A DNA stretch of 64,000 nucleotides from Gonocerus acuteangulatus (lineage: Eukaryota; Arthropoda; Insecta; Hemiptera; Coreidae): NCBI GenBank assembly GCA_946811695.1, contig OX328127.1:47523373-47587372 (forward strand), written 5' to 3'. A program made the translations under genes and the position numbers. The notes under the pieces are model-generated. The model was not told where the DNA came from. It saw only the letters and a list, made by a program, of their open reading frames with translations, and did not search any database. This document shows positions 2,757 through 64,000 of this stretch, piece after piece (position 1 is the first letter of the stretch; the number at the start of each line of letters is the position of its first letter).

Positions 2757-2880
2757 TTTTTAGCACTTTCCTCCGAAGGAAAGTAGCTATTGAGGTTGCA
2801 CTCATGACGGAATTTTTGAAAAATTTCTTCAAATCTCCATCGATCCTACCTAGTAGGCACCGAATATGACCCCCGTTAAA

Positions 2881-2948
<68 letters not shown>

Positions 2949-3873
2949 CTGTTAGCACGATAGCGGTCAGAGTTGTTGGTTTTTCTTCACGAAACATGGT
3001 ATATAGCGTTCAATTAGCAAACGATTTAACGAGTTCGTTAACCACCAAAATCGGTCCACCGGGAGGAGGGGTTTATCCCGAACCCAAAACACTAATTTGA
3101 CCCTGCCAGCAGTAGTTTTTGTTATATTTCAACGAAACTCGGTAATCGTTATGTTGATATAAAGAGAGACATACGTTGTAAAAATAAACTAAATCGGTTT
3201 ATTAGGAGGGGGGGGGGAATTTACTCCGGACCCACATTACCAATTTGCCACTACCAGCCGTAATTTTTGTTACATTTCAACGAAACTCGGCATTCGTGGT
3301 GGTAATCAACAGAGAAAAATGGGTTGTAAAAATAAACTAAATCGGGTTATTTGGAGGGGGGTTTACTCAGGACCTAAAGTACTAATATACTCATACCGGT
3401 CGTATATTTCTGCTGTATTGTAACGAAACGCGGTATACGTCATGGGTATCTCATGAGAAAAAATTGTTGTAAAAATTAGGTAAATCGGTCGATTGGAAAG
3501 GAGGGTTTACTTTAAACTCTGTTTCATTGGAATTAGCCGGCCAGACGTAGGTTCCCAAAGGCGCCGCGAGGAGCGCTATCTCCCACTAAGGGGACTGTAT
3601 CCTGTTCCTGCTTCAGATCAAAAGACGGAAAATGAAGTTTTTGTGTATTTATTAAGTAGTACAGTATCATATATTAACATAACTCTGGAAGCAAATTATT
3701 TACAAAATTAATAATTGAACAGTTCTCATAAGAAATTCAAATGAGCAGAACTATTCACGTTTTTATTTTATTTATATAGGTTATTTACAGCAAATTATTC
3801 AGTAATGTAGTCTACACTACAAAAATTCTGAGGAAAGTGCTTAGTTATGCAGCTCCTGCGTGACGGACTTTTT
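2757..3873 (-). mobile_element. Helentron-like non-autonomous element, family A copy 1
   Basis: In the element's own orientation the 5' end lies near 3873 (GTCCGTCACGCAGGAGCTGC) and the 3' end near 2757, where an 8-bp-stem hairpin (2765-2784) is followed by GCTAA. Between them are a (TA)n/(TG)n tract and diverged tandem units that repeat an ACGAAACTCGG and TTACTCCGGAC pattern. The subterminal 5' sequence TAAGCACTTTCCTC is inverted-complementary to the 3' terminus. These are HINE/Helentron traits. No protein is encoded; an ORF across the TA tract is an artefact. The superfamily assignment is inference from structure. Confidence 0.6.
2884..2948. repeat. (TA)n(TG)n microsatellite inside family A copy 1
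   Basis: A pure TA tract runs into TG repeats. The same position in family A copies 3 and 5 also carries a TA tract, so the microsatellite belongs to the element core. Confidence 0.95.
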
Positions 3874-6930: not shown

Positions 6931-9789
6931 TTTAATGTAACAACGGCTATCCTTGTACTCATTCTCTGCAGTCTTTTATTTCCACTTTAAGCTTCTTAAC
7001 CGTGGTAATCTTTAGACATGGCTACTACAAAACTAACTCTTTGTTCTTCGAATGAAATAATATTCGCCTATAAGAGAGAGAGAGAGAGAGGTAATTAGAG
7101 AGTAAGACGGTAGCGGTACTAATCCCAGAGGACATTATCCTCACTAATACGAGCACTAAAGTGGACGTTAGAGCCCGCAGGCACCGTAATGGCTCTCCTT
7201 AATGTGTATTACCGCCACCACAATCTGCACCTAACGCACCATATCTGCTTCTTTCATCAGGGCAGTAGTACCAATGTAAGGCAGTTAAGTATGGAATGAA
7301 TTTTATTGAATTCTGAATGATAATTTGTATATTAATTAATTAATAAAATAGGTCATTCAGCCCGCATTAAGAGATGTGAAATAGAGGCCTCAGAATTGTT
7401 TTAAGGAACACATAAATACAGACATTTGACAAATTGAGACAGCTAGCTTGAAGAAGCCGCTTTTCCTCTCTCTTTTGGGGTTTTGGGGCCTGGGAATGAG
7501 TGGGGAGCGGGGGTTGGAAAGAGAATGGCGTTCCTGATGACAAACCAGAATATTAAATGCTTTCATCATCCTCGGACCGTTCTTAATGCGGCCCGTATAG
7601 GCGGGGCATTAAAGTGGAAATCGGCGGACTATCCTGGAAGGGCCATGGAAATATGAGAGGGGGGGGGGGGGGGGGGAAGCGGCTTAGGACAGTCCATCAC
7701 CGAGGAAACAATTTATCTGTTCAAGTCAGCCTTCGCTAATGCCGCTTTATTTATTGCTCTCTCTCTCGAGTCGGATGAAAGCGAAATCTAGTGAGACATA
7801 ATTAATAATCACTTCTAAAGCCCTTCAAAGCCTACTGACTTTTGTGAAGGGAAGAAAACAAACTTTAATTCATGCCTGGAGTCGTTTGACTTACAAATAG
7901 TAACGACTTTTAACTCGTAAGATGACATTGTGTGATATAACATACCACATGTTGCTGAAGCTTAAAGTTGTGGAAAAACCTGAACTTTACCTATTTGTCT
8001 AGGACAATTTTTTTGTACATCACAGTAAATTGTATCACTTCGTAAAATGATTTTATTTCATGTCATTTATAAACAAGGCAGTGCAGTGAACGAGATTGCA
8101 GAACCATAACAACGCCGAAGATGACTTTTATGATTTTTTATTTTGATGTCCACCATTATCGATTACTTTCCGTATACCAGCAACTCGCTGACCACAGTTT
8201 GCGCCTAGTTATTCTGCCATTCTTTCTGACGCCTTAATATCGGAATAACTTAGTTCAAATCCCAGCCTGGACTCTGAAATTTCATCTAAAATAATGGATT
8301 TAAAAAGTATTCCACTTACTATTCATTGCGCACAGGCTACTGTTGTCAAATAAAGATAAATCGGGAAGATTCTATGTATTTGTATTTATTGAAATCATTC
8401 ATATTATTACCGCAAGACTGGTGTAGCACGAAGAACTACGACGGGTTCGCCGAAACCCCTGTACCTATGGGAATTCTATGCTGCATTTAAGAGATTTGTG
8501 ATCTAGGAGTTGGGATCCACTTTTCAGTAGTACTAAAATTACTTTCGTTGGATAGAGAAAGCTTTCGGCGATCTTAGGAAAGCTTGTTGTTTTTGTGAAA
8601 TGGTTTAGGTTCGGGAATTAAATAGTTTTAAAATACATTTTTTCCCAACGAGCTATTTACAAAAATGTAGGAAACTGCTCAGTTATAACTGCTAATATTA
8701 AATATTCTTTACTGGAATGTATTTAAAGATTTTTCAAATTTTGTTTACTTTTTTGTGCCATTTACTCATAATGAACATTTGTCTAAAACTCGACAAGTTA
8801 GTCTGTAAAAGAGACAGGCTATAAGGTCAAGAATTTTCATCAGTTCAATTGTTGTCATTATTAACTGAAGATAGATTTGGAAGTAGTGGAATAATCTATA
8901 TAGTTAAGGATTTGGGATATGTCCTCAAAATTCGTAATCATGAATTTATATAGATAAAAAGAAAGAAATTGAAATGCCAGCTTGGGTTCATTATTTTGAG
9001 CTTATATTGAACCATTCAGTTCGAATTGAAATTCCCAGAGACTGCTGTATTTTTAGACATCCAGGAATATTCCTCATTAAGAATATTGAAGTTAATCAAT
9101 AAAATATATCCTCAGATAATACATTCGCGTCTTTCTTAGTACAGTATATTATCAAAAAATCTCTGTGACTTACCAAAAATAAACCATGGAAAAAACAATT
9201 GTTATTTTCTGAAATGTGTTCTTTACAATTTGTTTAGTCCGTCCATTTATGTTATTTGAATTTATATAATACTTAATCTGGGGCGTAATCGATGTCTGTA
9301 CTTCTTTTTGAGATAAAAGGGGAAGATTGACTTATAAGTCACTCGACATTTTTAGCGTATTTCCTGTATCCCCACAGGAAAGACGGACAGGAAAAAAGGC
9401 GCTCAAGCTTTTCGGGGAGGCGGTAATGGGTCTAAACGAAATGAGAGGAGTTATGAGAGTCAAGAGGCGGTCGCGGGGTACCTACCTAATTAGAAATTTA
9501 ATATAATAAAATACTTTTGGTGCGTTAGAATATTTTTTCTTTTAATGAGGGTGGTAGTCTATAAAATGCGAGTTAATATTCTTTTCAGTCATTGAAACTC
9601 AGGGAGACATCAGACACGGGTTCATGGCGTTTTATATATTTTGTTAAATGCCTAGAAAACTGTTGGAAAAATCTAGCAATTGGAAGGAATCTATTCTAAA
9701 CCCTAACAAATTTCCAACCAAAAAAGTTTAAGAAGTATAATTGTCAGTAATAGATAAATATACTTTTCTGATTTATAAAAGTAAAAATC

Positions 9790-11649: not shown

Positions 11650-12225
11650 AACATTAAATTGGCTTTAAGGCACATCCAATGTTCACAAGTATCTCATTCA
11701 AAGAGGAATATCAATTCAAAAAGTGGAAGCTAATAAAAGCTTCTGGTTAGCGACAACATCACTACTCTTCCAAAAAACATCCTGCAGGCTGCCGAATCTC
11801 ACAAAAGATGTAAAATTTAATCAGCTTTCCAAGGGTATACTCAGAACAGGGATTATCTCTCATTTTCATAATGTAATTAGAATGAAAGATAAAAGAAACA
11901 AGTAACAAAAACATTTTTTGTTGTTTTTTCTTAATTGCAATTAACAGTAAAATGAGTATTTTAGTAAAACAAGGCTAGAAAATGAGAAGCAATATTGTAG
12001 GGAGTTCCAAGAGCGAACGTTGAGAAAGATGATGCAGTAATTTCTGCTTAGGACACACTCAGTTTCCTCTTGTGGCACTTAACATCTTAGATTAATTCTC
12101 TTATTTCTTTTTATATTTTTCACAAAAGATAGAAACCTATCAATAACTACTTCTATTCCTTTACTAATAGCTCTAGGGATATGAACGGAAACGCGCTAAG
12201 ATGACGCAGCTCATGCGAGTCGGAC
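11650..12225 (-). mobile_element. Helentron-like family B, diverged copy (B4)
   Basis: On the minus strand the 5' end starts near 12225 with GTCCGACTCGCATGAGCTGC and TTAGCGCG, then AGCTATTAGTAAAGG, AGGAAACTGA and TTCTCATTTT in the same order as in the copy at 28619-29288. The 3' end with its hairpin is not recognisable, so the left limit is approximate. Non-coding. Confidence 0.5.
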
Positions 12226-13050
12226 TTTTTAAATATATTTGAACAATTTTGTGAATAGAAATTGATTTAATTGTAGTTTATACAAGCTATTTTATAACAA
12301 TGAAAAGTGTGAAATAAATTGAAGTGCTTTGCGGCATTTTTCCCGCGCTTTTATTCATATTTAGGGTGGAATGAAATAGTATGTGAAGTTTCATGAAAAT
12401 CCAAGTTGGGTTACTAATTGTTCAGAATTACCTAAATACCTATTTTATTATATTATGAAAGCAGGCTTATCTAACATTCATAAATAAAATTCCTTATCGT
12501 GAGTCGCCATTCGTGTTATAGACAACTGTAACGAATTCTTTTGAAAAGTTGTTGGAAGGAATTTCCTGTTTGAAGAAGGTTGCGGTTCCCAGTAGATTTG
12601 TGTGGCTATGAATCTCTTTTCGGTTGACAGTTCTGGGCTTAACCCACCAACGGCTCTTCTGCGGTGTGTATTGTCTACTCATCCACTCTCCACTTTCCTT
12701 GTATTTATTTTCATTCAAAAGTCACTCTTATCTTTTAAATTTCTATTTATTGGGGATAATTAGTAAATTACGGAGGCAATGAATTAGGAGATAAATCAGA
12801 TATAAGTTTCAATTATGAATTGATTTTCTATGTGATTTCAGATTTTTCTTAAGGTCTGACGTAAGACGTTTTTTTTTTTCGAAATCAGTGAATTATCTTC
12901 CGTTCTCATCCAATAGTCGTGGTAATCATGATCGAATGGAGATCACAAAAATAGTGATTTTTGGAACTGAAAGATTGAATGCTCAATTACAAAGGGTTGC
13001 TTACTTCAAAGCATAGGATCAACCTCTGAATGAACTTTCCATAAATACAA

Positions 13051-13795
13051 CGCCTACGCAGGAGCTGCATAACTAAGCAGATTCTTCAGCAAGGTGGTTG
13101 GCTTACCGAGCAATCCTGAAGAATGCACTTAAAAAACCCTGTAAAATAAAAAAAAAAAACAAAACATAAGTAGTCATCTGCCTTAATTATACATTTTTTA
13201 TTTAATTTTGTTTGGATTAAACGCCAACTTCGACTTGACAGATTTTGCTTACGTTTACAACTCGTGCTCCTTTTTAGTTGAGAATATCTACTGAGTTTAG
13301 TAATTGAAAAATAATAAATTGGTACATAAGTGAATGCATACCCAGCCTCGTTGTAATATAAACAAATGTTGACCGTAAGGGACATACTAATAATTTGTGA
13401 CTATAGTAAGCCCTCTGATGTCTTTCGAGTTACATTGCAAGGAAGTAAAAATAACGGGTCCCTTATGGGCTGAATTAGTTTATTTTTAGAACAAATCTTT
13501 CTCTTTAAATAGACACGATGTGTGCTGAGTTTCGTTGCATTGTAATATAAATTTCGAGAGTTATGGTAACATTAATAATTTGTGTCCGGAGTAAACCCCT
13601 CTTCAGATAGACGCATTTCTCTTGTTAACGAAATCGTCTACTCGTTTGTTATAGGAATACCACAAAGTTTTGAAAAAAAAAAAAAAAAAAAATTGTGGCC
13701 GCTATCGTGTTAACGGATGATACTTATGTATGTGTGTAAATTAATATTTTTGAAATTGTGTCATAAGTGTAACCGTTCTGCCTCCGCGGAAGTCC
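13051..13795 (+). mobile_element. Helentron-like family A, degenerate copy 2
   Basis: The 5' end reads ACGCAGGAGCTGCATAACT, as in the other family A copies. The body contains GAGTTTCGTTGCA and TCCGGAGTAAACCCCTC blocks of the family's tandem units, then GGCCGCTATCGTGTTAAC, which in other copies marks the inner edge of the TA tract. Heavily diverged, with a poly(A) run at 13672-13691. Non-coding; the ORFs here are chance. Confidence 0.5.
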
Positions 13796-17450: not shown

Positions 17451-17758
17451 TGTTGGGGCGCGGGCTTTAAGATTTAGGGTACAAAGTATGTCGTACCCCC
17501 ACCTCCCTAATATACCAGCGCAGTTCGTTTCCAGATCTAGAGTAGATCACATCTCATTCTTTTAGCTCGGGACTGCCCCCTCAATTCCCATTACGTTCCG
17601 GCCTCTCTTCTCTCTTTACTTTCCAGGAGCTGCTAACAGGGCCCTGTTTCTTCAGCAGCTGGCAACGTAATGGTAAGTTTAAATGTTTTTTTCTCATACT
17701 CTGAACCCATCCCTCAAACCACGTGCCGAGGATTAATTTTCAATCCCCAGCGCGTACA
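17451..17758 (+). repeat. BEL element 5' LTR
   Basis: 308 bp, starting TGTTGGGGCGCGGG and ending GCGTACA. Reading both copies base by base I found no difference from the 3' LTR at 22217-22524. Near its end it contains ATGGTAAGTTT, which looks like a splice donor. Confidence 0.95.
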
Positions 17759-17762
17759 TTTT

Positions 17763-17780
17763 TGGTCCTCCGGGCCGCGG
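17763..17780 (+). promoter_or_regulatory. Candidate tRNA primer-binding site
   Basis: Four bases after the 5' LTR the sequence reads TGGTCCTCCGGGCCGCGG. TGG is the complement of a tRNA CCA end and the spacing suits a minus-strand primer site. I have not matched it to a tRNA. Confidence 0.5.
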
Positions 17781-17887
17781 ATTGCGTAAGTAATCCGTGG
17801 AGATTTAACCACGACTAATCCGAATCGCGGAATACATATTAGTTCCCCATTTTATAGAATTAGAATTTTTATTCGTCCAACTTCAAG

Positions 17888-20800
17888 ATGTCGAAGCGAG
17901 ACCCCATTAAACAACTAGCTATTTTAAAGGAAAAGCGCGAGGCCATGTTCGCAATGGCATCCAATTACTTAAAAAGGGCTACAAATTTAGAAAAGGAAAA
18001 TTTTCGCGATTTCGCCCCTACGTATATCAAATTGGATCAAATGGAAAATAATTTCTATAGAATACAGGATACGATTATGGAAATTAACGCGGAAGTTTCT
18101 ATAGAAACTGAGAAATTGGAAGTTCAGAATGTTTGCGTAGCCTTCGATGACGTCATACATTCCATACGCAGTACATATCTTAGGCTGGACAGGCTGTATC
18201 CCGAAGCTCCGACAGGCGCGTGCCTGCAGGAGAAGCCTATTCTTCAAACCAAATCCTTTCTCCCTAGGATAGAAATTCCACGTTTTTCGGGGAAAATCGA
18301 AGATTGGACTACCTTCATATCACTCTTTAACAGTATAGTCGATACCGACGAATGCCTGACGCAAGTTCAAAAATTTCAGTATTTGAGGTCGGTACTCGAC
18401 GGAGAGCCTCTATCTCTTATATCAAATTTCCAACTTACAACAGAAAATTACGCTTTAGCATTGCAGGTGCTTAAAGATCGATACCAGTCAAACAGACGTC
18501 TGGCCGCATATTATATAAATCAAATTTTGTTCTTTTCTCCCATTACGACATCTAACCATAATTATCTGCAGAAATTCATTAGCGTACATTCCAATTCTGT
18601 AAATGCACTGAAAGTGCTTGATCTAGAAAATTTGGAAGATGTTCTTCTTTTTCATTTGGCCTATAGGAACTTAGATCGTTCCACTCAGATTGCATTCGAA
18701 AATCATTTCAAATCAGTAAATGTTCCAACTTTTAAAAATTTACTTGATTTTGTAATAGAACGTGCTAGATCATCTGAGATAATGCAAGATCTCGGAATAA
18801 AAGGTAGAATTACTCAGAGTAAACAAGTTAATACTTTCCTAACTAATTCGAATAAAATAGAACGAGAAGATCCCAGCTGTCCCATTTGTAAACATTCTCA
18901 TAAGATAACATCGTGTCCTCAGTTAATTAATTGTCAACTCAATAAAAAATATGAAATTTTAAAACGCCTAAAACGATGTTTTAACTGTCTTGGTGCACAT
19001 ATGAAAAATCAATGCAAATCGAAAAATGTTTGTAGATCGTGTAGTAGATCCCATCACACCTTATTACACCCTTCTAATTCTTATTCAACTTGTAATAATA
19101 ATCCGAATGATAATTTAAATTCTTGTGATTCTAATTCCAACGATGCGATAACTCCCACTTTTATCACTAATGAAGAGCCTAGAAATAATTCCGTTACTTT
19201 ATCTTGTCATTCTGCTAATTCCATAACGGTACTTCTTGGAACTGTGAAAATGTTTATAAGAGATTCAAGTGGCCGTCAACAACCGATTCGAGGAATATTA
19301 GATTCTGGATCTCAAATTTCAGCTATATCTCTCGGAGCTGTCAAGCGTCTAGGATTCAAAAAATTGAAAAATTCTATCTCTCTTTCTGGGATATCCAATG
19401 TTGCTACACCCACATATGGAGCTGTAGATTGTATCTTGTCTCCCCGTGACAACTCTAAAAGAGAATTTAAAACACAATCTGTTATCTTATCAACCATTTC
19501 TAACGACCTACCGCAACAAAGTCTACCTGTACGGGTAATAAACAGATTTAAAAATTTAAAATTAGCCGATGATACATTTTTTGAAAGTTCTCCAGTAGAA
19601 TTCATAATTGGAAATGATTTATATCCATTCATTCTAGAAAACGAGCCTATTACAATAATTAAGGGTAACCCTTCAGCAATAAACACTGTTTTTGGTTGGG
19701 TTATCGGTGGTAATGTTATCAACCCAGAAAATAAAAACCCAAATAAAGATTCTGCTATATGTTCCTTGATGGCTATAACTCCTTCTTTGGATTCTTTAGT
19801 TTCCAAATTCTGGGAAACTGAAGAAGTGAGTGCATCCATTCCTATAAACCCTGAAGATGAATTCGTTGAAAATCATTTTGTGACCACTCATTCCAGAGAC
19901 ACTTCTGGTCGCTATGTGGTGTCATTGCCTTTCAAACCTAATGCTCCAATTTTGAGCGATAAGCGCAACCAAGCGCTAAAATATATTTTAAATTTAGAAA
20001 GGCGCCTTTCTCGAACTCCTGAGATTATGTTTGACTATAATAAATTTCTAAACGAATATTTAGAATTGGGTCACATGGAAATAGCCAATTCCTCTTCTAG
20101 TTACATATTACCTCATCATTGTGTGCTTAACGAATTTAGTTCTTCTACAAAAATAGCGAGTTTCCCACCAGCAAATTGGTCGCACGTTTCGACTGACCAG
20201 AACCCCGCCGATATAGCCACTCGAGACTGCTCTCCGGAGCATTTTTCAGAAAACTCTTTGTGGTGGAGAGGTCCCTCTTTTTTGAGAAAAATTCCCAGCG
20301 AATGGCCGACCACGCGTATCGTCAGTCCTGAGGAAGAAATACCAGAGCTGAAACCGCTTAAAGTGTTATTATCCGCCTCTGTTCCATCACCTTACCTAAT
20401 CGAGTTCATAAATAAGTTTTCTTCTTGGCTTCGTTTGAAATATGTTCTAGCATATGTTTTGAGATTTGTTCACAACATTAGATCAAGTAACACGCGTCAT
20501 AAGGGCGCTCTTTCTGTCCAAGAGTTAACGTTAGCAGAAGACCTGATAATATCGTTGGTGCAGAAAGACAGTTTCCCATTTTTATTTGTTTCTAATTCAA
20601 CTGTTCCTTCCAATATAGCATCCCTGTCCCCATATCTCGATAAAAAGGGACGTATAAGAGTTGGTGGCCGCTTGAGGTACTCAAACTTAAGTGAGTCCGC
20701 TAAGCATCCTATTCTTTTGCCTAAAAAATCAAGAATATCTGAACTCCTCTGCGACTATTATCATTTAGTTTCCTTGCACTCAGGACCTAGGACTACTCAA

Positions 20801-21859
20801 AGTTTGATCCAGCGATATTATTGGATAATTTCTCTTCGCGATCTAGTGCGCAATCGCATCCACAAGTGCCTTACATGCCACAAGTTAAGAGCCTCAGTTA
20901 CGCAGCCAGTTATGTCTAATCTGCCTTATCCAAGAGTCAATGTCTCAAAGCCATTCACAAGCACCGGGGTGGATTTCGCTGGCCCATTTCTCATTAAGGA
21001 AAGCAGCAGGAAAAATGCTGCTGCTAAGAAATGCTATTTATGTCTTTTCGTTTGCTTCAGTACTAAGGCTGTCCATCTGGAAGTTGTTTCCTCTCTGTCG
21101 ACCCAAGCATTTATCGCTACTCTAGACAGATTTGTTGCGAGACGAGGTCTCCCCCACGACATTTATTCAGACTGTGGACGTAATTTTGTTGGTTTTTCTC
21201 GACACCTAAAAGAAGTTTATGATCAGATGAAGGCTTCCTCTCCTGAAATTAGCGCATTTCTCGCATCCCGCAGCATAAGATGGCATTTTAATCCTCCTTA
21301 TGCACCTCATTTTGGTGGCCTTCATGAAGCTGGCATAAAATCTGCCAAACTCCTTTTGGTACGAATGCTTGGCCGGAATCCTGCTCTAAGTTACGAGGAA
21401 CTCACTACTCTAGTTGCGCGCATTGAAGCCGTCTTAAATAGTCGTCCACTCTATCTCTCTTGCCCTCATCCTCTTGATGATCCTGATCTTCTAACCCCTG
21501 GTCATTTCTTGGTGGGCGGCCCTCTGCTAGCCGTTCCAGAACCTCTAGAAGAAAGTACCTCATATGCATCACGTTGGACAAGGGTCAAGTCGTTATATGC
21601 GTCCTACTGGAGACGCTGGACTTCTGAGTATTTAAACACACTCATGCAAAAACAGAAGTGGACAAAGTGCTCCGAAAACCTTGCCGTAGGCGACGTCGTT
21701 TTCCTCAAGGAAAATTCTTTACCACCCCTCGCATGGCCTATTGGCCGGGTTGAAGCCGTACATCCAGGACGTGACGGCGTGGTGCGTGTGGTGTCAATCC
21801 GCACAACCCATGGCACTTATGTCAGGCCAGTAACAAAACTACTGTTGCTGCCACATTAG
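17888..21859 (+). CDS. BEL/Pao Gag-protease-integrase polyprotein lacking RT core and RNase H
   Basis: 1323 residues; the start is the first ATG after the LTR. In order: a DUF1759-type Gag region (PRFSGKIEDWTTF near 130); three zinc-knuckle-like motifs (331-395: CPIC.., CFNC.., CRSC..); a retropepsin-like protease with DSGSQ near 472; the N-terminal edge of the RT region (ILPHHCVL near 745); then an abrupt junction near residue 755 (about 20150) straight into the segment after RNase H (NWSHVSTDQNPAD..ATRD). Next come an integrase HHCC zinc-binding region (HSGPRTTQ..CLTC), a DDE core with D in TGVDFAGPF (about 1029), D in YSDCGRNF (about 1095) and E in LHEAGIK (about 1146), and a DUF5641-type C-terminus. 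Full-length relatives are several hundred residues longer. The missing part includes the catalytic YxDD-type motif, yet the frame stays open across the junction. Gag, protease and integrase may therefore still be made; polymerase cannot be. Confidence 0.93.
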   Translation: MSKRDPIKQLAILKEKREAMFAMASNYLKRATNLEKENFRDFAPTYIKLDQMENNFYRIQDTIMEINAEVSIETEKLEVQNVCVAFDDVIHSIRSTYLRLDRLYPEAPTGACLQEKPILQTKSFLPRIEIPRFSGKIEDWTTFISLFNSIVDTDECLTQVQKFQYLRSVLDGEPLSLISNFQLTTENYALALQVLKDRYQSNRRLAAYYINQILFFSPITTSNHNYLQKFISVHSNSVNALKVLDLENLEDVLLFHLAYRNLDRSTQIAFENHFKSVNVPTFKNLLDFVIERARSSEIMQDLGIKGRITQSKQVNTFLTNSNKIEREDPSCPICKHSHKITSCPQLINCQLNKKYEILKRLKRCFNCLGAHMKNQCKSKNVCRSCSRSHHTLLHPSNSYSTCNNNPNDNLNSCDSNSNDAITPTFITNEEPRNNSVTLSCHSANSITVLLGTVKMFIRDSSGRQQPIRGILDSGSQISAISLGAVKRLGFKKLKNSISLSGISNVATPTYGAVDCILSPRDNSKREFKTQSVILSTISNDLPQQSLPVRVINRFKNLKLADDTFFESSPVEFIIGNDLYPFILENEPITIIKGNPSAINTVFGWVIGGNVINPENKNPNKDSAICSLMAITPSLDSLVSKFWETEEVSASIPINPEDEFVENHFVTTHSRDTSGRYVVSLPFKPNAPILSDKRNQALKYILNLERRLSRTPEIMFDYNKFLNEYLELGHMEIANSSSSYILPHHCVLNEFSSSTKIASFPPANWSHVSTDQNPADIATRDCSPEHFSENSLWWRGPSFLRKIPSEWPTTRIVSPEEEIPELKPLKVLLSASVPSPYLIEFINKFSSWLRLKYVLAYVLRFVHNIRSSNTRHKGALSVQELTLAEDLIISLVQKDSFPFLFVSNSTVPSNIASLSPYLDKKGRIRVGGRLRYSNLSESAKHPILLPKKSRISELLCDYYHLVSLHSGPRTTQSLIQRYYWIISLRDLVRNRIHKCLTCHKLRASVTQPVMSNLPYPRVNVSKPFTSTGVDFAGPFLIKESSRKNAAAKKCYLCLFVCFSTKAVHLEVVSSLSTQAFIATLDRFVARRGLPHDIYSDCGRNFVGFSRHLKEVYDQMKASSPEISAFLASRSIRWHFNPPYAPHFGGLHEAGIKSAKLLLVRMLGRNPALSYEELTTLVARIEAVLNSRPLYLSCPHPLDDPDLLTPGHFLVGGPLLAVPEPLEESTSYASRWTRVKSLYASYWRRWTSEYLNTLMQKQKWTKCSENLAVGDVVFLKENSLPPLAWPIGRVEAVHPGRDGVVRVVSIRTTHGTYVRPVTKLLLLPH

Positions 21860-22216
21860 TTGTTTTTTTTTTCCTCTTTATCTCGCAAGATGCATTCATT
21901 TATTTTTCTATTATTTCACAAGTGTTTTGTTGTCTCTCTTTCTTTTCGCCAAGCGAGGCTTTATTATAATTTGCCAAAGGATTCATCCCTCCTTAGTCCT
22001 CATCCTCTCCGTGGGCTTCCCGCGAAGAAGTCTTCCATGACAGCCCCCTTGGAAGTGAAGAAGTTGCGTTTCCTTTATTCCTACTTCTCTCTCTCATACC
22101 TTTTCGTGATGAACCTTTGGAAGATAACCACCTATTTATTATTATAAGTTATTTCCTTCTTTCTCTAGATTTCTTATTTCTCTTTTTAAGAAACTATCGT
22201 TTCTTGGTGGGCGGTA
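21860..22216 (+). other. BEL 3' untranslated region with polypurine-like tract
   Basis: This region lies between the ORF stop and the 3' LTR. GGTGGGCGG at 22206-22214, two bases before the LTR, is the best candidate for the plus-strand primer (polypurine tract). The short ORF at 21860-22147 has no motif. Confidence 0.6.
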
Positions 22217-22524
22217 TGTTGGGGCGCGGGCTTTAAGATTTAGGGTACAAAGTATGTCGTACCCCCACCTCCCTAATATACCAGCGCAGTTCGTTTCCAG
22301 ATCTAGAGTAGATCACATCTCATTCTTTTAGCTCGGGACTGCCCCCTCAATTCCCATTACGTTCCGGCCTCTCTTCTCTCTTTACTTTCCAGGAGCTGCT
22401 AACAGGGCCCTGTTTCTTCAGCAGCTGGCAACGTAATGGTAAGTTTAAATGTTTTTTTCTCATACTCTGAACCCATCCCTCAAACCACGTGCCGAGGATT
22501 AATTTTCAATCCCCAGCGCGTACA
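22217..22524 (+). repeat. BEL element 3' LTR
   Basis: 308 bp, reads as identical to the 5' LTR, and is followed by the TSD CATTT. Confidence 0.95.
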
Positions 22525-27669: not shown

Positions 27670-27806
27670 GCGCCGACGTCCTGGGTACAACCAGGAATTT
27701 TCTCAGCGAGCCTTGAAATGAGAAAACCCCTGCCGCCGGTGGGGATCGAACCCACCATCTCCCGCTTATGAATCTAGCTCGCTAGCCACTAGACCACGGG
27801 AGACCC
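27611..27806 (-). mobile_element. tRNA-derived SINE (SINE1) with long poly(A) tail
   Basis: On the minus strand the head begins near 27806 with GGGTCTCCCGTGGTCTAGTG (A-box region), then a B box GGTTCGATCCC at about 27741-27752, a body with GTCGGCGC-type sequence, and a tail that appears as 56 T at 27611-27666. Further copies lie at 62472-62648, 63911-64000 and, diverged, at 38607-38695. The long uninterrupted tail suggests a recent insertion. Not a functional tRNA gene. Confidence 0.85.
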
Positions 27807-28097
27807 CACTTGTTGATGTTATTGTGGAAATTATTTTTGAAATTTTCTGCTATATTTATAGGATAAAGGTTAACGACTTTTGCCTTAAAGGTAGGAAAGA
27901 AGCTTCCTTTATTTTCCGCACAAGAGCTTCTAGTAAGATATTCATGTTCACTGCTAAACGACCCATATCAGATGAGGGCCTCAAACGATGTAATCATCGT
28001 GAATGAAGATTTTCCATCTCAGCTTATGAGCAAGAAAAATAAAACTATGATACCTAAAAAGCACGCATATTTTGAAATAACCAGCAATTTATGACCC
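27807..28097. other. Unassigned sequence left of a LINE insertion
   Basis: No gene. Its right edge, AATTTATGACCC at 28086-28097, is the left copy of the TSD for the LINE fragment that follows. Confidence 0.5.
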
Positions 28098-28549: not shown

Positions 28550-28618
28550 TAAAACTCGCGGACCTGAGTTATCTTCCTCTCGGATTAGGAACTGTGTAGA
28601 TGAGTGTCACAATAAAAA

Positions 28619-29288
28619 GTCCGACTCGCAGGTACTGCGTCATCATAGCGCGGTTCCATTCATATCCCAAGTGCCATTAGTAAAGGGGAAAACAGATATT
28701 AGTAGGGATGATCTTTCGTAAAAAATACAAAATAAAATTACAAAGAGAAGGAAGTTTAAGGCTCCTCAACAGGAAACTGACAGTATCCTGAGTGAAAATT
28801 ACTCACCCGCCTTCTCCATGTTCGCTCTAGGAAATCACTATTACCAATAAGTTTCTCATTTTCTTCCCTTATTTTACAAAATTTCTAATTTTACTGATAA
28901 ATGCAATTTAAAAAAAACCATTAAAAAGTGTGTTAAACAAATACAAAAATCCGTTCAGAAGAACAAAACTAACATTTTCGAAGCACTTCTTTCTGCGATA
29001 GACCTCTTCACATCGTAAATTGCTTCAGAGTCATTAGTGTAGAGAATTTAGAAAGCTTTCGAATGGCCACTTTCCACTTACTACGATTTCCCAAGAGTTT
29101 TGGAGATATTTATGAAAATATACCAAGATCCCAAAACTTTTCATGCCTATTAATAATTTGAACCGCCGTTATTTTCGCGATATATGGGATCTAAAGGTGA
29201 AATTTTCTAGTCGGAATTTCCGGATTGCGTCATGAGGTCAACCTCATAAGCGGGTTTCCTCCCTATGGACGGATGGAGGAACCGCGCA
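28619..29288 (+). mobile_element. Helentron-like family B, copy B1
   Basis: The 5' end is GTCCGACTCGCAGGTACTGC followed by TAGCGCGGTTCC. The 3' end is a hairpin at about 29253-29283 (GGTTTCCTCC against GGAGGAACC) followed by GCGCACAA, a changed form of the GCGCTAA seen in copy B2. The 5' subterminal AGCGCGGTTCC and 3' GGAACCGCGC form an inverted pair. The body matches B2, B3 and B4. Non-coding; no TSD, as expected for rolling-circle elements. Confidence 0.6.
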
Positions 29289-29289
29289 C

Positions 29290-30170
29290 AAATTCTTTCA
29301 TGAGAAAATCTCCTTCTGCACGTATTGTGAGTACAAAAAAGAAATGAAAATATGCTGAGCCTCGATGAAATTAAGGTTGCGGAGAAGTGTGTTAGGCTGA
29401 AGGAGTAGGATTTACCCACTCCGCTGATTGAGGGTGCAGGTGCGACTCCAGCCATTTCCTGGGTCTCTCTCTCTCTCGGTTTATTGCCCTAGTCCTCCGA
29501 ACCTCATCAGGAGCCTGCGTGTAGGTTAGGGTAGTTATGGATCGCCTCCCGTTTTACAATAATATCAGGCTTTTTAGTTCTCCCTTGTATTGGAAGGCAT
29601 TTTTCTGATTTTTCTCCTTATTGGTTTCCATCGAACAACCCATCAGAAGAGAAACTACCCCTTGCCCTGGCGCAGGTGTTGTCGGATTGGTCCTCTTTGT
29701 TGATTGTTCTACAACATTCCATGTATATTCTGTGTAATCGAAAACGTAACTCGCGGGAACATCGTCAAATTAGTGTGGTTACATATAATGCTAATTTCTG
29801 GTATTATAGAAAGATTACAACAGGACCTTCTAATATTTCACCTCTAACGAAACGTAGTCAACGTTTCTTAAAGGTCTAGCGCTGTATTCTTCAGTCGAGA
29901 TGCATTTAAGGTTCTGCGTTAATAAATTTCCAGGTTCACTTTTCATAGGTAATGGCGGGGAATCTAATAAAACTGCTTTCAAGGCCATATCTGTTACCTT
30001 TTTCAAAAAAAAAAAAAAAAAAAAATGGAAGTAACTAGAGTTTTAATATAAGGCATATATTCGAAAGCTTACTTCACATATCTACAAAAAACGGTTATTA
30101 TGACGTTTGATGACATTTCATTGGACTAGGTGTTTACATTTTTCACAAAACTAAATGTTACCTGTTTCTA
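29290..30170. other. Unassigned sequence
   Basis: No gene seen. A poly(A) run lies at 30005-30024. Confidence 0.4.
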
Positions 30171-31936: not shown

Positions 31937-32063
31937 TTTTAGCACTTTCCTCCGAAGGAAAGTGGCTATTGAGGTTGGACTCATGTCGGAATTTTTGAAA
32001 AATTTCTTCAAATCTTTATCGATCCTACCTAGTAGACACCGAAAATGACCCCCCTTAAAATTT

Positions 32064-32090
32064 ATATATATCTATACACACACACACACT

Positions 32091-32173
<83 letters not shown>
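32064..32173. repeat. Compound (CA)n(TA)n(TG)n microsatellite
   Basis: CA, TA and TG tracts follow one another at the same internal site as the TA tracts of the other family A copies. Confidence 0.95.
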
Positions 32174-32329
32174 CTGTTAACACGATAGCGGCCAGAGTTT
32201 TTGTTTTTTCGTCACGAAACTTGGTATATAGCATTCAATTAGCAAACGATTGAACGAGTTCGTTAACCACCAAAGTCGGTCCACCGGAAGGGGGGGTTTA
32301 CCCCGAACCCAAAACACTAATTTGACCAT

Positions 32330-32741
32330 GTCAGCAGTAATATTTGTTATATTTCAACGAAACTTGGTATTCGTAGTGGTAATATAGAGAGAAAAGTGAG
32401 ATATAAAAATGAACTAAAAAGGTTCATTAGGAGGGGGGGGGGGTTTCTCCGGACCCACAATACCAATTCGCCACTACCAGCCGTGATTTTTGGAATATTT
32501 CGACGAAACTCGGTATTCGTAGTGGTAATCCACAGGTAAATATGTGTTGTAAAAATAAACTAAATCGGTTCATTAGGAGGGGGGGTTTACTCCGGACCCA
32601 CAATACCAATTCGCCACTACCAGCCGTGATTTTTGGTATATTTCGACGAAACTCGGTATTCGTAGTGGTAATCTACAGGTAAATATGTGTTGTAAAAATA
32701 AACTAAATCGGTTCATTAGAGGGGGGGGGGTTACTCCGGAC
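32330..32741. repeat. 143-bp tandem repeat in family A core
   Basis: Two well-matched units and a more diverged neighbour. Each unit carries CGAAACTCGGTATTCGTAG, a TAAACTAAATCGGTTCATTAG stretch, a G run and TTACTCCGGAC. The same units occur at 52440-52740. Confidence 0.8.
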
Positions 32742-38785: not shown

Positions 38786-39286
38786 TCCTGATCTGACGCA
38801 GGAAAAGGATACAGTCCCCCTAGTGGGAGATATCGCTCCTCACGGCGGCTTTGGGAACCTACGTTTGGTGGGCGAATTCTAACGAAACAGAGTTTAAATT
38901 AAAACCTCCTTTCTAATAGACCGATTCATTTCATTTTTACAACACTTCTTTCTCATGAGGTACCCACGACGTATTCCGCGTTTCGTTACAATACAGCAGA
39001 AATTACGACCGGTATGAGTATATTAGTACTTTAGGTCCGGAGTAAACTCCCCTCCTAATAAACCGATTTAGTTTATTTTTACAACGTATTTCTCTCTTTA
39101 GATCAACATAACGAATACCGAGTTTCGTTGAAATATAACAAAAACTACGGCTGGCAAGGTCAAATTAGCGTTTTGGGTCTGGGGTAAAACCCTCGTCCCG
39201 TTGGACCGATTTTGGTGGTTAAGGAACTCGTTCAATCGTTTGCTAATTGAACGCTATATACCATGTTTCGTGAAGAAAGAACAAAA
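38786..39286 (+). mobile_element. Helentron-like family A copy 4, partial
   Basis: Starts at CTGACGCAGGAAAAGGATAC inside the family's 5' part, runs through the AGCGGCTTTGGGAACC-like block and tandem-type units (GAGTTTCGTT, TCCGGAGTAAACTCC), and stops at TTCGTGAAGAAAGAACA, where family B copy B2 begins. It lacks the TA tract and 3' hairpin, perhaps lost when B2 inserted. Confidence 0.6.
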
Positions 39287-40287
39287 GTCCGACTCGCAGG
39301 AACTGCATCATCTTAGCGCGGTTCCGTTCTTATCCCTAGTCTAATTTGGAAAGATTAAAATATTTATTTATTGATAAGGCTTCGCAACTTTGGCGAAACG
39401 CCTGAAGATTAAAATAGAAGCAGTTATTATTTTGGTTCCACCAGTCTTGAATGGTCTTGATTTACGATCTTACCTGGAAGGGTCGGTCAACACTAGAAAG
39501 GGTCCCGCTAGTTGCAAGGTCTTGGAATCTAGGAAATCTGTATTTCTAACAATAAATTGTTTTGTTATTTTACCAAACCAGTTTTATTGTCAAATACATT
39601 ATCTGACTATAAGCAATTTAAAAATAACAAGGAATAAAACAGACAAAAAGAACAGTTCGAATAAGCGAAATCAATTACTTTAAAGTTTTAAGCACTTATT
39701 TCTCCGATTGACATCGCCTTATCAAAACTTTCATTAGAACCATTTTTGTAGAGCATTTAGTGAGCTTTCTAATGGTCATCTTCCGTTTCCCAAGATTCTC
39801 AACCTTTTTCGAGATATTAAGGAAAGTATACAAAGTTACCAAAACTTTTTATGTCTGTTAATAAAATATTTTTTTCTAACTCTTCCTAAACTCCAAACGT
39901 AACAAAAATTTCAACATATTAGTTTTAATGAAAGTAGAACATGCAGAAAATGTTTCAACTGAATCCCATGATTCTAAGTACCCAAACCATAACCGGTATT
40001 CAAAAACTATTTTTCCAATTTTCTCGAAAACGGTTAAAGCTATCGCCTTGAAAATGGTTTCATTCGTTTTCCAAGCCCAAGAAGCCTATAAAACGAGTAC
40101 TTACAAGCTTATGAAGTAAAAAACGTAAGCGTTACGATTTTTTTTGCGCGAATTTCGCCCCAAACGCCATCTTCCAGTGGGCGGATTCTGCAGGTTAACG
40201 AACTTGACCTTTTAAATTGGACGACGGATTTTTGTACCAAATTTCATCACAATCGGACCATTAGGGAAGCCAGAAATGAGCGAACAG

Positions 40288-40328
<41 letters not shown>

Positions 40329-40346
40329 TATACATATATATATATA

Positions 40347-40398
<52 letters not shown>

Positions 40399-40534
40399 AA
40401 TTTGAACCACCGTTATTTTCGGTCTCTAGGGGTTCTGAAACGCGAAATTTTCTAGTCGGCACTTCCGGATTGTTTCATTGTATCAACCTTATAAGCGGGG
40501 TTCCTCCCTATGGGGGAGGGAGGAACCGCGCTAA
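39287..40534 (+). mobile_element. Helentron-like family B, best copy (B2)
   Basis: The 5' end is GTCCGACTCGCAGGAACTGC, then CTTAGCGCGGTTCC. The 3' end is a strong hairpin (GGTTCCTCCC at 40499-40508 against GGGAGGAACC at 40518-40527), then GCG and CTAA (40531-40534). Hairpin plus CTRR is the hallmark 3' end of Helitron-type elements. The 5' subterminal TTAGCGCGGTTCC is the exact inverse of the 3' terminus GGAACCGCGCTAA. A TA/TATATAC tract sits inside. No Rep/helicase is encoded. The Helentron/HINE identity is inference from structure. Confidence 0.65.
40292..40396. repeat. Interrupted (TA)n microsatellite
   Basis: About 105 bp of TA with a few interruptions, inside family B copy B2. Confidence 0.95.
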
Positions 40535-40736
40535 AAACAAAATACATACATGTGCTAAAAGTTAAAAAAGATCGATAGCTACTATCGTTAGTCATGAACT
40601 ATGCATATATCGACAGTGACAATCGACTATTGCCCATCCATACCCTCAATCGGCGCGCCGAATGAATAGGCTTGGTGGCGGCGGCGCCGCTAAAACCCGG
40701 CGTGGCGTAGCGGCGCCGGCGCGGCGCGCATGTCTA
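40535..40736. repeat. Right GC-rich end of the hAT-like element
   Basis: Includes a TCGATAGCTACTATCG-type palindromic stretch, then dense GGC/GCC sequence, and ends CGGCGCGCATGTCTA, the inverse of the left end. Confidence 0.75.
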
Positions 40737-41185
40737 CTCCGGACCCAAATTCCTAATATACTCATACCGGTCGTAATTTCTGCTGTATTGAAACGAAACG
40801 CGGTATACGTCGTGGGTAACTCATGAGAAAGAAGTGTAAAAATGAGCTGAATCGGTCAATCGGAAAGCGGGGGTTTACTTTGTAATATATTTCAATAGAA
40901 AAGCCCGCCAGACGTAGGTTCACAAAGCCGCCGCAAGGAGCGCTTTGTATCTAGAGGGACTGTATCCTCTTCCTGTGTTAGATCAAAATACGATAATATG
41001 AGGTTTTTTGTATTTATTACGTAGTGTAGTAGGTACCATGTGTAAACATAACTCGGGAAGCAAATTAATAATTGATCAGTTACTCATAGTAGGATATTTT
41101 AAGCAAATTGTTCTGGAAAGCAGTCTACACTACCCAAATTCTGAGGAAAGTGCTTAGTTATGCAGCTCCTGCGTGACGGACTTTT
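40737..41185 (-). mobile_element. Helentron-like family A copy 3, 5' half
   Basis: Continues exactly where 32741 left off relative to the copy at 51957-53241 (CTCCGGACCCAAA, then ATATACTCATACCGGTCGTAA) and ends in the family's 5' terminus (on the minus strand), GTCCGTCACGCAGGAGCTGC. Confidence 0.7.
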
Positions 41186-51956: not shown

Positions 51957-53241
<1,285 letters not shown>

Positions 53242-54757
53242 TTTATCTTGTCATCTCTGAGAAACATATGGCTGCAGGTGTCAAGCGCCTTTTGGACAAA
53301 GATACTCCTAGTACTCTTGCGAAATTCAGCAGGCCGCAAGTGAGACATATGATTTTTCAGCTCGTGCACGAATCCAGGCAAGTCTTTGCAGGCTTGGAAT
53401 GCCGCCTCGCTCTCTTCATTCCACTTTATAGGCGACCGGTCATTTTTCTTAGACCCATGCAAGAAACGATTAAGTGGCGCCTGAGCCTCGGCCGCATTGG
53501 GAATGCATGGCCTATAGAAGTTCGCCATTCCTAAAAACCGGCGTAGAGGCTTAACGTCTTGGGGTTTCGGGTAATCCGCTATGGCTTCGACTTTCCCCGG
53601 CTGGGGCACAATTCCATCAGGCGTGACCTTGTATCCCAGGAAGTTGATCTCGCTGAGGCCGAACCCACATTTTTCAGCGTTTAGCGTCAAACCATTTTCA
53701 CTGAGTCTCCTAAATACTTCCTCCAGATGTATGAGGTGTTCCTCCGTAGTGTGCGACGCGATGAACATATCATCAATAAGAATAAAGCAGTAAGCCAGGT
53801 CTCTGAACTTACTATCCATAAAACGTTGAAATGTTTGGGCCGCATTACGCAGGCCGAAACACATAACAACGAATTCATACAGTCCCACGGGTGTAGTCAC
53901 GGCTGTCTTGGGGATATCTTCCTTTCTAATGGGTATGTGGTAGTACGCCCTGACAAGGTCTAAGCGTGAAAAAACTCTCTTCCCGTGTAAGTTATTTCGG
54001 AAGTCCATTACATTAGGGACCCCGTACCTGTCAGGTATCGTTTGGGCGTTCAGCTGTCGGTAGTCTCCACAAAATCTGATGGATCCATCTTTCTTGGGGA
54101 CCAGATGAAGTGCGCTAGCCCACGGACTACTCGAAGGTCGACAAATTCCGTGTTCTACCATTCGATGAAACTTGTCCTTCACCTGCTGGTACTTCTCGGG
54201 AGGTAGTCTTCGAACCTTGGCATGTACGGGTCGGCCGGTTGTTTCAATTACATGTTCAGTGTCGTGTCTCACCGGTCGCTTAGAAGAAGAAGGGCTCGTG
54301 ATATCCGGGTACTTCCGCAATAGAGAGGCGTAGGGGTGACAATCAGGAACTGCGGGTATGGTTGTGGGAATCTCCTCTGCGACTTTTCCTTTTGATGACT
54401 TGCGTGTAATCTTGTCGATCAATTGTTTACCGTTGAGGTCGACCAAAAGATTGAAGACATACATAAAGTCAGCCCCGATAATTGGCTTCGGGACATCAGC
54501 CATCACAAAATCCCATCGGAAAATTCGACCTAGTCCAAGGTCCAACTGCAGTTCGCGCATCCCATAGGTATTGATCTTTGTACCATTAGCCGCATACAAC
54601 ACAAAGTCATCAGGTGTGGGTTTGGCCATCTTGTTTGGAGGTATCACCGAAATCGCTGCACCGGTGTCAATAAGGAATGCCCGCTTTGACCGCTTATCAG
54701 TTACGAATAGGCGTTGTGTACTTGCGGTGCCGGGCAAAGCCACTTCCGGCCCGCCGA

Positions 54758-61716: not shown

Positions 61717-61741
61717 TTGTTGTGGTCTTTTGTGAAAAAAA

Positions 61742-62910
61742 GTCCGACTCGCAGGATCTGCGTCATCTTCGCGCGGTTACGTACATCTCGAAGAAATGGA
61801 ATAGATTAGCATCACAAATAACAGGAAACTGACAGTAGCCAACTTTCACAGAAGCTGATAATTCCTAATAAGTCAAAACACCTATGTACTGAAAACGTAC
61901 TTACTCTTGGACTTTTACTGAGAAGGCTCTATTCTAAACAACCAAAAATTCTTTGTCATTCTAAGAATGTATCTTGTTTTACTAGCAAATTCGTTTTACT
62001 GTAATATTTATTTATTTCATTATGAGCTAAGCAACTTTAGCGATATGCTCATGATCAGGAAAATCTCGAAATTACTGTAATAATCAACTGTAAATATGTG
62101 CTTAATGGTTAATAAAATTCCATTCTGTCGTGGGTTAAATCTTTCTATAAAATAATAAATAACGATAACTCCAGTTGTAGGCTATGGGGAAGGTTATATA
62201 GATAGGAGAATTCAAAACAGCCAACGATTAGCCACAGCCATCTTGATTACCACAGCCACTACAGACTTATTACCTATACCTTTCACCGTTTCTTAGCTTA
62301 TTTTACTACAATACTAATTTTACTGACAAATGCAATTTAAAACCAGAAACAACCAATTAAAAAGTGAGATAAACAAAGAGAAAACCCCTTTCAAAACAAT
62401 AAAACAAACACTTTTTCAGTTTTAAGCGCTTATATCTCTGATTGACGTTGCCCCATCGAATATTGAGAACCTTTTTTTTTTAAACGCCGCATCTACATCT
62501 AGGTCATTAGCGCCGACATCCAGGGTGCAGCGAGGAATTTTACCAGCGAGCCGTGGGATGATAAAATTCCTGCCGGAGGTTGGGAATCGAACCCACCATC
62601 TCCCGCTTATGAATCCAAGGCGCTAGCCATTAGACCACGGGAGACCCCCAGAACCTTTTTTGTAGAGAACTTAGCAAGCATTCGAATTGTCCCCTTCCAC
62701 TTACCACGATTTCCCAACCGTTATCGAGATATTTACGAAAAATGTATGAATATCCGAAAACTTTTCATGTCTATTAATAGAATAATTTTGTTCGCATACT
62801 TCCTTAACTCCAAATATAACCAACATTTAAACATATTAGTTGGGATTAATTTCCAAGATGTAGAAAATATTTCAATTGAATCCCGCGATTCTAAGTACCC
62901 ACAAAAAAAA
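61742..62910 (+). mobile_element. Helentron-like family B, copy B3, interrupted by SINE1
   Basis: The 5' end GTCCGACTCGCAGGATCTGC and CGCGCGGTTAC is followed by family blocks (AGGAAACTGACAGTA, TGCAATTTAAAA, TCTCTGATTGACGTTGCC, TCGAGATATTTACG, TGTCTATTAATA, ATTCTAAGTACCC) matching B1 and B2. A SINE1 at 62472-62648 splits it; the join is recognisable because B2 reads through at the matching place. The 3' hairpin is missing, so the right limit is approximate. Confidence 0.55.
62466..62655 (-). mobile_element. SINE1 inserted in family B copy B3
   Basis: The body at 62472-62648 lies between AGAACC at 62466-62471 and AGAACC at 62650-62655. The tail appears as a T run at 62472-62481. On the minus strand the head is GGGTCTCCCGTGGTCTAATG with B box GGGTTCGATTCCC. 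The uninterrupted B2 copy shows one AGAACC-like site at this position. Confidence 0.88.
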
Positions 62911-63868
62911 TAATGACTTCCAAAAACATTGAATCTACTAAAATAATAATATCACTTAATTCAGAAAAAATAATTTCTTTTGGGCGTAATAGCGTTTTAA
63001 TTGTCTAACTATTCCATGTTCTAGATTTTTATTATCCCATACCCCCAAAATCCTTTCAGCCCCTCCCCCCGAAATTCTCCCAGTCCCCTCCAAAATTATT
63101 TTCTATATAAGCGTGAACATCCTTCTCATTTACTAGCTTTGTTTTATTGAAAAAAAAAATGCACTCAAAATAACAGCACCCAATTAAAAAATAAGGCGTA
63201 CAACATAAATAAAAATTAATAACTGAAGTAAACAGAGACACAAAAAGAGGAACTACTTCTCGAGTTTAATATTATCAAATGTCAAGCAGGTCATTTTGCG
63301 AGGCTTATGGCTGGGGCTGTAACCGTACTTATTGTCAGGACCTTAGAAAGAGGAGCAGGTAGCGAAACCATTGTTTCCTCGTCAAACTTCTAGCCGAGTC
63401 TGGCATATTATGTTGAATAAAACTAAAGATAATTCTGGAATCGCCTTTTCTCAGAAATGGTTAAACTAATGAAAAAAAGTGTGAAGACAAGTTTTGTACA
63501 TAATTTCACATTCTACAATTTTTGTCTGAACTATTTTTGCCATAAAACAAAACGTTTCGTTGAAAATTCCTAAAAACCTTTTTTAGCGAACTTTGACCTC
63601 GAAAAAATTCTTTGCACTCATGGGATCGATAAGGGCTTTTCCCAATTCCCTTATAATGTTGTCCCTATCTTTCATGCAAATTTTCAGGTTGCTAGGAATT
63701 TATGCAAAGGTACTCGTATTTTTCTAACTCATCTATTTCTAACAACAGAAAATTGGTTCTCATTTTAACTATCCTGTTTTAAACACAAATACATTTACCT
63801 AATATAAGAATTACAAAAATAAAAAGCAATAAAAAACTAAGGGGAAGAGACAAAAATTACAAACAAAA
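62911..63868. other. Unassigned sequence
   Basis: No gene or recognisable element. The short minus-strand ORF near 63056 has no motif. Confidence 0.4.
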
Positions 63869-63907
63869 GTCCGACTCGCAGGAACTGCGTCATCGTAGCG
63901 CGGTGCT

Positions 63908-63910
<3 letters not shown>
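63869..63910 (+). mobile_element. Helentron-like family B, copy B5, 5' end only
   Basis: GTCCGACTCGCAGGAACTGC, then ATCGTAGCGCGGT, is followed after five bases by a SINE1 tail. The rest may lie beyond the window. Confidence 0.5.
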
Positions 63911-63955
<45 letters not shown>

Positions 63956-64000
63956 GGCACATCTACATCTAGGTCATTAGCGCCGACATCCAGGGTGTAG
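63911..64000 (-). mobile_element. SINE1, cut by the window end
   Basis: 43 T (a poly(A) tail on the minus strand), then the SINE1 3' body with ATCTACATCTAGGTCATTAG and CGCCGACATCC, as in the copy at 62472-62648. The tRNA-like head would lie past 64000. Confidence 0.85.

Follow-up and report, generated by a model that had tools for sequence, protein, structure and literature searches.

The 64-kb stretch of DNA analyzed here (the window) raises the question of why two repeat families with a common outer sequence should each carry its own matched pair of subterminal inverted repeats (subTIRs). An earlier note, made from the letters of this DNA, had called the two families, A and B, Helentron-like and had taken the joint change of their ends as a sign of a recognition pairing between ends. 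The explanation that we hold to be very probable places A and B among the HINEs (DINE-1-like) as two families, A having arisen by deletion from an autonomous Helentron in the same genome, with end blocks that would be set by the enzyme lineage. That subTIR pairs differ between Helentron families is not new; such differences are already described and family-defining, and A and B are a new pair of families. Helentron families have been delimited by identity at 11 or more subTIR letters (PMC4067079), DINE-1 lineages have been tabulated with different subTIRs, three of them in D. willistoni alone (PMC2374699), and oyster HINEs show element-specific changes in subTIR, inverted repeat, stem, and tandem-repeat arrays (PMC7492417). 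The role of the subTIR is not shown in the portions of the Helentron and DINE-1 literature compared here. The present 1.1-Gb genome holds more than 44,000 exact 3′ ends and at least two families with common outer sequence and different subTIR pairs. Because a parent is also at hand for one of these families, end specificity becomes testable by A/B end swaps.

End Blocks, Polarity, and Anatomy

The sequence GTCCGnCnCGCAGGAnCTGC occurs at eight places in the window at up to three mismatches (six exact and two with one mismatch), against a mean of 0.00 in 100 shuffles. For TAAGCACTTTCCTC there are five places at up to two mismatches where 0.42 are expected, and for TTAGCGCGGTTCC ten where 0.67 are expected, several of the two-mismatch places being unrelated sequence. 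In the focus element, B1, TTAGCGCGGTTCC lies at 39313-39325, and an exact inverse copy of it lies at 40522-40534. Two family A copies, A1 (2760-3872) and A3 (51958-53243), have GAGGAAAGTGCTAA at one end and the TAAGCACTTTCCTC type at the other, and the two A blocks are one fixed letter apart between ends (TTAGC versus TAAGC). The block of A3 has changed to TAAGCACTTTGAAAGTGC. Its 3′ subTIR (window 53197-53214) is now a small palindrome (GCACTTTCAAAGTGC), as though it had arisen by back-copying of one arm. The window holds four complete copies, two of A and two of B, alongside partial ones (Table 1).

Table 1. Helentron-related features of the window
Feature	Position	Strand	Remarks
B1, complete HINE, family B (focus element)	39283-40534	-	5′ end 40534, 3′ end 39283
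B1 5′ hairpin: subTIR TTAGCGCGGTTCC (40522-40534) and adjoining inverted repeat	40492-40534	-	-15.6 kcal/mol, z -5.73
B1 internal (AT)n microsatellite	40292-40396	-	
B1 3′ subTIR GGAACCGCGCTAA	39313-39325	-	
B1 3′ palindrome GCAGTTCCTGC and terminus with final CGGACTTTT	39283-39306	-	Short stem; folding no better than shuffles
A1, complete HINE, family A, with microsatellite and ~148-bp tandem repeats	2760-3872	+	Empty site
A3, complete HINE, family A	51958-53243	+	3′ subTIR altered at 53197-53214
Family A copy: 5′ end and tandem repeats	31939-32741	+	3′ end not found
Family A fragment adjoining B1, 3′ end only	40732-41185	+	
Family A interior fragment, far side of B1	38789-39286	-	Inverse to 40732-41185
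B2, complete older HINE, family B	28615-29290	-	
Family B 3′ end	12187-12229	+	5′ end not found
Family B′-like 3′ end (GTAACCGCGCGAA)	61738-61782	-	
Family B 3′ end, at window edge	63865-63907	-	
Type C (third type) 3′ end: GCTGAAGAATCTGCTTA and GCAGCTCCTGCG	13057-13089	-	5′ partner not identified

The earlier note had placed the blocks and their inverse copies correctly, but it had their 5′/3′ polarity reversed, as the direction of the Rep gene reveals. In the autonomous A Helentron, the genes run from the TTAGC hairpin to CGGACTTTT. The 3′ hairpin with CTAA of the note is the 5′ end, and its outer 5′ sequence corresponds to the conserved 3′ end (...GCAGnTCCTGC...CGGACTTTT). On the opposite strand the 5′ end runs TTAGC, subTIR, loop, inverted repeat, and the 3′ end runs subTIR, GCAGnTCCTGC, CGGACTTTT. 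DINE-1 elements and Helentrons are described with a 5′ subTIR that is terminal or nearly so and has an inverted repeat alongside it, and with the 3′ subTIR about 38-60 bp inside the 3′ end and a palindrome outside that subTIR (PMC2374699, PMC4067079); the window elements match this layout once the strand opposite to that of the note is taken. With polarity settled, the end that bears the start signal is now decided.

Both families share one anatomy. The 5′ subTIR makes up the outer arm of the hairpin at the terminus; the interior holds a microsatellite and, in A, tandem repeats of about 145 bp; and the 3′ part has a subTIR about 40 bp from the end, a short palindrome, and a terminus in a T tract. 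The hairpin adjoins the terminus because its outer arm is the repeat block itself. At five 5′ ends the hairpins beat shuffles (z -3.3 to -5.7). The motif GCAGnTCCTGC is conserved at 3′ ends, and folding of the palindrome at six of them is no better than in shuffles (z -1.5 to +0.6), so the palindrome is to be read as conserved sequence and not as a proven stem. A and B can be aligned just inside the 5′ hairpin and outwards from the 3′ subTIR; the 5′ block, the hairpin arm, and the 3′ block differ between them.

The patterns are abundant genome-wide. The 3′ end pattern has 44,410 exact matches on the two strands of the 1.106-Gb genome. Among 5′ ends, the A hairpin is matched exactly 20,788 times, the B end 29,054 times, and the B′ end 3,454 times; the B 3′ subTIR together with its palindrome has 20,513 exact matches. 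Every pattern gave 0 in a reversed control. The 3′ end pattern has no exact match in a viral collection.

Target Site

TT stands immediately ahead of the 5′ TTAGC in 18 of 20 copies. Of 17 joined flank pairs, two, those of A1 and of a B copy, pointed to clear paralogous empty sites, and a third spanning match was not interpretable. At the A1 site, other copies of the host repeat read AAAGGATTTTTTGATATTC, and the joined site is one A short of these empty copies. At the site of the B insertion, other B copies, including B1, read GTTA, five or six Ts, and then AA. Both insertions thus checked lie in T tracts, with no duplication beyond Ts and with an exact boundary that cannot be fixed within the Ts.

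An Autonomous Parent for Family A

A search for the Helitron Rep domain in the genome of the window gave 42 matches. Ten loci were fetched around such matches, and two more loci of the A lineage were fetched later. Two of the loci, C22:32.77 Mb and C1:106.77 Mb, fall in one Rep lineage, and at both an A 3′ end follows the genes on their coding strand; ahead of the genes, the 5′ A end is intact on C22 and degraded at C1:106.77 Mb. A complete A-lineage element of 9.26 kb with an A 5′ end and an A 3′ end lies at C1:124.83-124.85 Mb. The fourth A-lineage locus has the A 3′ end, and its fetched stretch stops short of the outer 5′ end. In all four fetched A-lineage loci, then, the genes read towards an A 3′ end, and in two of them (C22 and C1:124.83 Mb) both A ends are intact around Rep/PIF1 genes (PF14214 and PF05970). 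The earlier note had proposed a search for an autonomous Rep-helicase Helentron, often with an endonuclease, bearing either end pair, and for the A ends one has been found. The four are a subset of the A-lineage loci listed for the genome. Among the other fetched Rep loci, seven are only distantly related (22-29% identity over matched pieces), and C28, discussed below, makes up the eighth.

The genes of the A-type autonomous Helentron code for DUF6570, Rep, PIF1 helicase, endonuclease, and a USP-type peptidase; DUF6570, Helitron_like_N, PIF1, and UCH are the domains of the C22 element. Several autonomous copies have broken frames. The window A copies and the A-lineage autonomous elements have in common their first ~0.7-1 kb, where the tandem repeats and microsatellite lie, and their final ~60 bp, and by this comparison family A is most probably a deletion derivative of the autonomous Helentron in the same genome.

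An AP-type endonuclease is predicted at the C-terminus of the A Helentron by alignment to relatives. The region aligns with all six relatives among the matches listed, each of which has PF14214 or PIF1 together with PF03372 (two of the six are from Aedes albopictus), and it is collinear with the PF03372 stretch of the relatives P0005 and P0003. The C-terminal part on C22 scored 16-17 bits for PF14529 (Exo_endo_phos_2), below the Pfam cut-off of 27.4. A comparison of the endonuclease region with the PDB gave no match, and its predicted structure was unusable at a mean pLDDT of 35.6.

Downstream of the Rep-helicase-endonuclease, the second gene is a USP-type peptidase (PF00443) in all four fetched A-lineage loci, and a decayed one is also present at C28; the genes lie at L020:4449-5222 and L022:3042-3869, with homologues in L030/L031, L032, and L025. 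Helentron deubiquitinases have been described as OTU and tegument-like (PMC9741609); no report of a USP in a Helentron was found in the open-access literature searched.

At three of the four A-lineage autonomous loci fetched, a further A 5′ end, degraded (ATAGGACTTTCCTCCGAAAG), lies within the first. On C22 the two 5′ ends lie at C22:32765970 and ~32766752, and L021/L022 and L032 are built likewise. These doubled ends resemble the self-inserted composite elements discussed for Fusarium (PMC5148889).

Matching of the Two Ends

Four complete copies in the window are too few for a test of covariation, and the test was therefore run on other parts of the genome. Copies were drawn from ~329 kb that combined the window with Rep-centred loci and with 60 kb of sequence picked regardless of repeats, and 20 copies with both ends were paired by hand as the nearest 5′ and 3′ ends on the same strand. 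Nine are A/A, eight B/B, one B′/B′, and two are old and decayed, doubtfully assigned to B (9/13 letters) and A (7/13). None of the 20 is mixed. Within copies the subTIR matches itself at 12-13 of 13 letters in 14 copies, at 9-10 in five, and at 7 in one; A3, otherwise complete, matches at only 9 of 13 in its 3′ block. Summed over the 20 copies, 230 of 260 letters match, against a shuffled mean of 186.5, and 1 in 200,000 shuffles was as good. The independent changes behind this pattern are few (A versus B; B versus B′, by one letter; and type C, at the 3′ end only), and with so few evolutionary events many of the copies are not independent.

A second test used positions in the first 3.12 Mb of C1. 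It listed 133 3′ ends, 100 by the 3′ end pattern and 33 B ends from a search for the B 3′ subTIR only, as well as exact 5′ ends of A (33), B (74), and B′ (8). A 3′ end was paired with a 5′ end on the same strand at most 3.5 kb away with no other listed 3′ end between them, and its type was assigned by the letters adjoining the palindrome or by an exact B subTIR. Among the listed ends this gave 74 pairs: 25 A/A, 44 B/B, 4 B′/B, and 1 A/B. The 3′ end pattern alone gave 25 A/A, 35 B/B, 3 B′/B, and no A/B pairs. An exact B subTIR is present at the 3′ end in 31 of the 44 B/B rows, and the other 13 were typed without reading the block. Ends match by clade in 73 of the 74 pairs (shuffled mean 40.5), a value reached in none of 20,000 shuffles.

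Three rows appear mismatched: the A/B row, and two in which a B′ 5′ end goes with an exact B subTIR at the 3′ end. Two of the three were read, and in each a 3′ end of the expected type that had been overlooked precedes the counted one; the third stands as listed. The apparent A-5′/B-3′ pair (C1:2167572-2168132) is an A element of ~290 bp that lies nested within a B copy and has an A end of its own, and in the apparent B′-5′/B-3′ pair (C1:686905) the element's own B′ 3′ end precedes the B end. Both overlooked ends had been missed because of single-letter differences from the search patterns. The proposal of two families with block pairs matched within copies is supported.

B 3′ ends also occur in runs on one strand, six at C1:976171-977839 and five at C1:2286558-2286872. 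Their spacings are multiples of ~117 and ~48 bp, respectively, which indicates tandem arrays that contain the 3′ end.

Class Assignment and Rival Explanations

Membership of the families in the Helentron/HINE group, as first suggested, has held up on the Rep-PIF1 parent with A ends, the endonuclease region at its C-terminus, the subTIRs, the 5′ inverted repeat, and insertion in T tracts. As in the Helentrons and HINEs of mite, Culex, and Drosophila, the parent has a Rep-PIF1 helicase-endonuclease, the subTIR of those elements lies 38-60 bp from the 3′ end, and terminal Ts vary in number; the second gene here is a USP-type peptidase in place of RPA or OTU, and autonomous copies often have two 5′ ends, unlike those described there (PMC4067079). 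In DINE-1/INE-1 of Drosophila, the listed subTIRs are unrelated to those of A and B, and the microsatellite is GTCY-rich whereas it is (AT)n/(AC)n here (PMC2374699). Pacific oyster Cg_HINE is alike in its internal tandem-repeat arrays and in its subTIR, complementary repeat, and 3′ palindrome, and unlike in the sequence and placement of its microsatellite; the portions of the oyster report compared do not discuss an autonomous parent (PMC7492417). The Fusarium Helitron2 FoHeli, whose 5′ hairpin is built on the inverted repeat, likewise has asymmetric inverted repeats, a 5′ hairpin with a GAA loop, a 3′ repeat 38-51 bp from an ...ATTTT end, and self-insertion that yields two 5′ ends, but it is described without an endonuclease and with a TNAT|T target, unlike the elements here (PMC5148889). 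The Helitron2 class was set aside since its ends fit but an endonuclease region is present, and a MITE of a DDE transposon since the repeats are subterminal at one end, the two empty sites have no non-T duplication, and the partner found is a Rep/helicase. The Helitron1 class was rejected on its defining features (5′ TC, 3′ CTRR, A|T target, no inverted repeats).

In the reading that we prefer, Rep, perhaps with the endonuclease, would nick the T tract next to the 5′ hairpin, one strand would be peeled off by the helicase, and the 3′ subTIR and palindrome would mark the stop and the rejoining. One short sequence might then serve both ends for one enzyme lineage through recognition by Rep. If one sequence must serve both ends, the 5′ block, hairpin arm, and 3′ block should differ as a set while the surrounding DNA stays alignable, and the set-wise difference of the blocks between A and B is compatible with both ends being recognized in such a lineage-specific way. 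Canonical Helitrons (Helitron1) in the orientation of the earlier note, with a 3′ hairpin then CTAA and insertion at A|T, can hardly account for these elements. A hairpin followed by CTAA does exist in that reading direction, but it adjoins CTAA instead of standing 10-12 nt before it, the Rep genes run the opposite way, the ends carry inverted repeats, and the insertions are in T tracts and not at A|T.

The covariation itself could have other sources. The two ends might base-pair or be bridged in transposition, so that pairing itself drives the covariation, and the ends are indeed inverse copies that differ as a set between families. We nevertheless think this unlikely: the 5′ block is already partnered by its own hairpin arm, and the same protein binding each end separately explains the pattern equally well, the covariation being compatible also with one lineage-specific protein that binds each end independently. 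Lower still we would rate the view that matching reflects only the common descent of whole copies, with an A/B split long ago and ends free of constraint, which is improbable. Full copies of one family do inherit both ends together, and there are few independent events to draw on (A/B, B/B′, and perhaps C). Unconstrained inverse copies should, however, drift apart, and the ends within most copies still match at 12-13 of 13 letters, which counts against descent alone; the blocks also differ between families whose flanks can still be aligned. Beyond our preferred account of two HINE families with lineage-set end blocks, A and B might be mutually insulated Helentron systems within one genome, each dependent on a separate Rep lineage. 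The subTIR triplet (the two end blocks and the hairpin arm) would be a lineage address that is replaced as a unit between ends that can otherwise be aligned, down to a one-letter sub-address in B versus B′, the C28 Rep lineage would be the partner of B, and the USP deubiquitinase would be shared cargo. This extension is speculative, and we regard it as rather doubtful.

A Candidate Partner for Family B

A second, decayed Rep lineage lies amid nested B elements at C28:19.67-19.68 Mb (C28:19671655-19675332), and its pieces are 44-75% alike to the A Rep in stretches of more than 40 aa. The locus is broken and holds other insertions, and its termini are not assignable, which makes C28 only a candidate partner for B; an autonomous element with B ends was not established among the fetched Rep loci. 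A unit with two inverted B 3′ ends was also considered and rejected, as it proved to be part of longer B elements that run from a B 5′ end to a B 3′ end.

Other Features of the Window

None of the eight window ORFs scanned has a Rep or helicase domain, and Rep/helicase motif patterns found only chance Y..KY matches in the window frames. A GCTAA hairpin at 9352 was rejected as a further 5′ end, no partner end being found in the window. Sequences like 5′ ends, akin to family A and with other blocks, occur at window 740 (TTAGCACCTTCTG...) and ~57080 (GTAGCTTCTTATC...), and no 3′ end that matches them was found in the window. A BEL/Pao-like retroelement occupies window 17451-22516, and its flanking repeats are identical (at least 300 bp at 100%), which points to a young insertion. 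Finally, tRNA-like SINE copies lie at window 27740-27807, ~62477-62650, and 63905-64000, two of them inserted into B-family copies.
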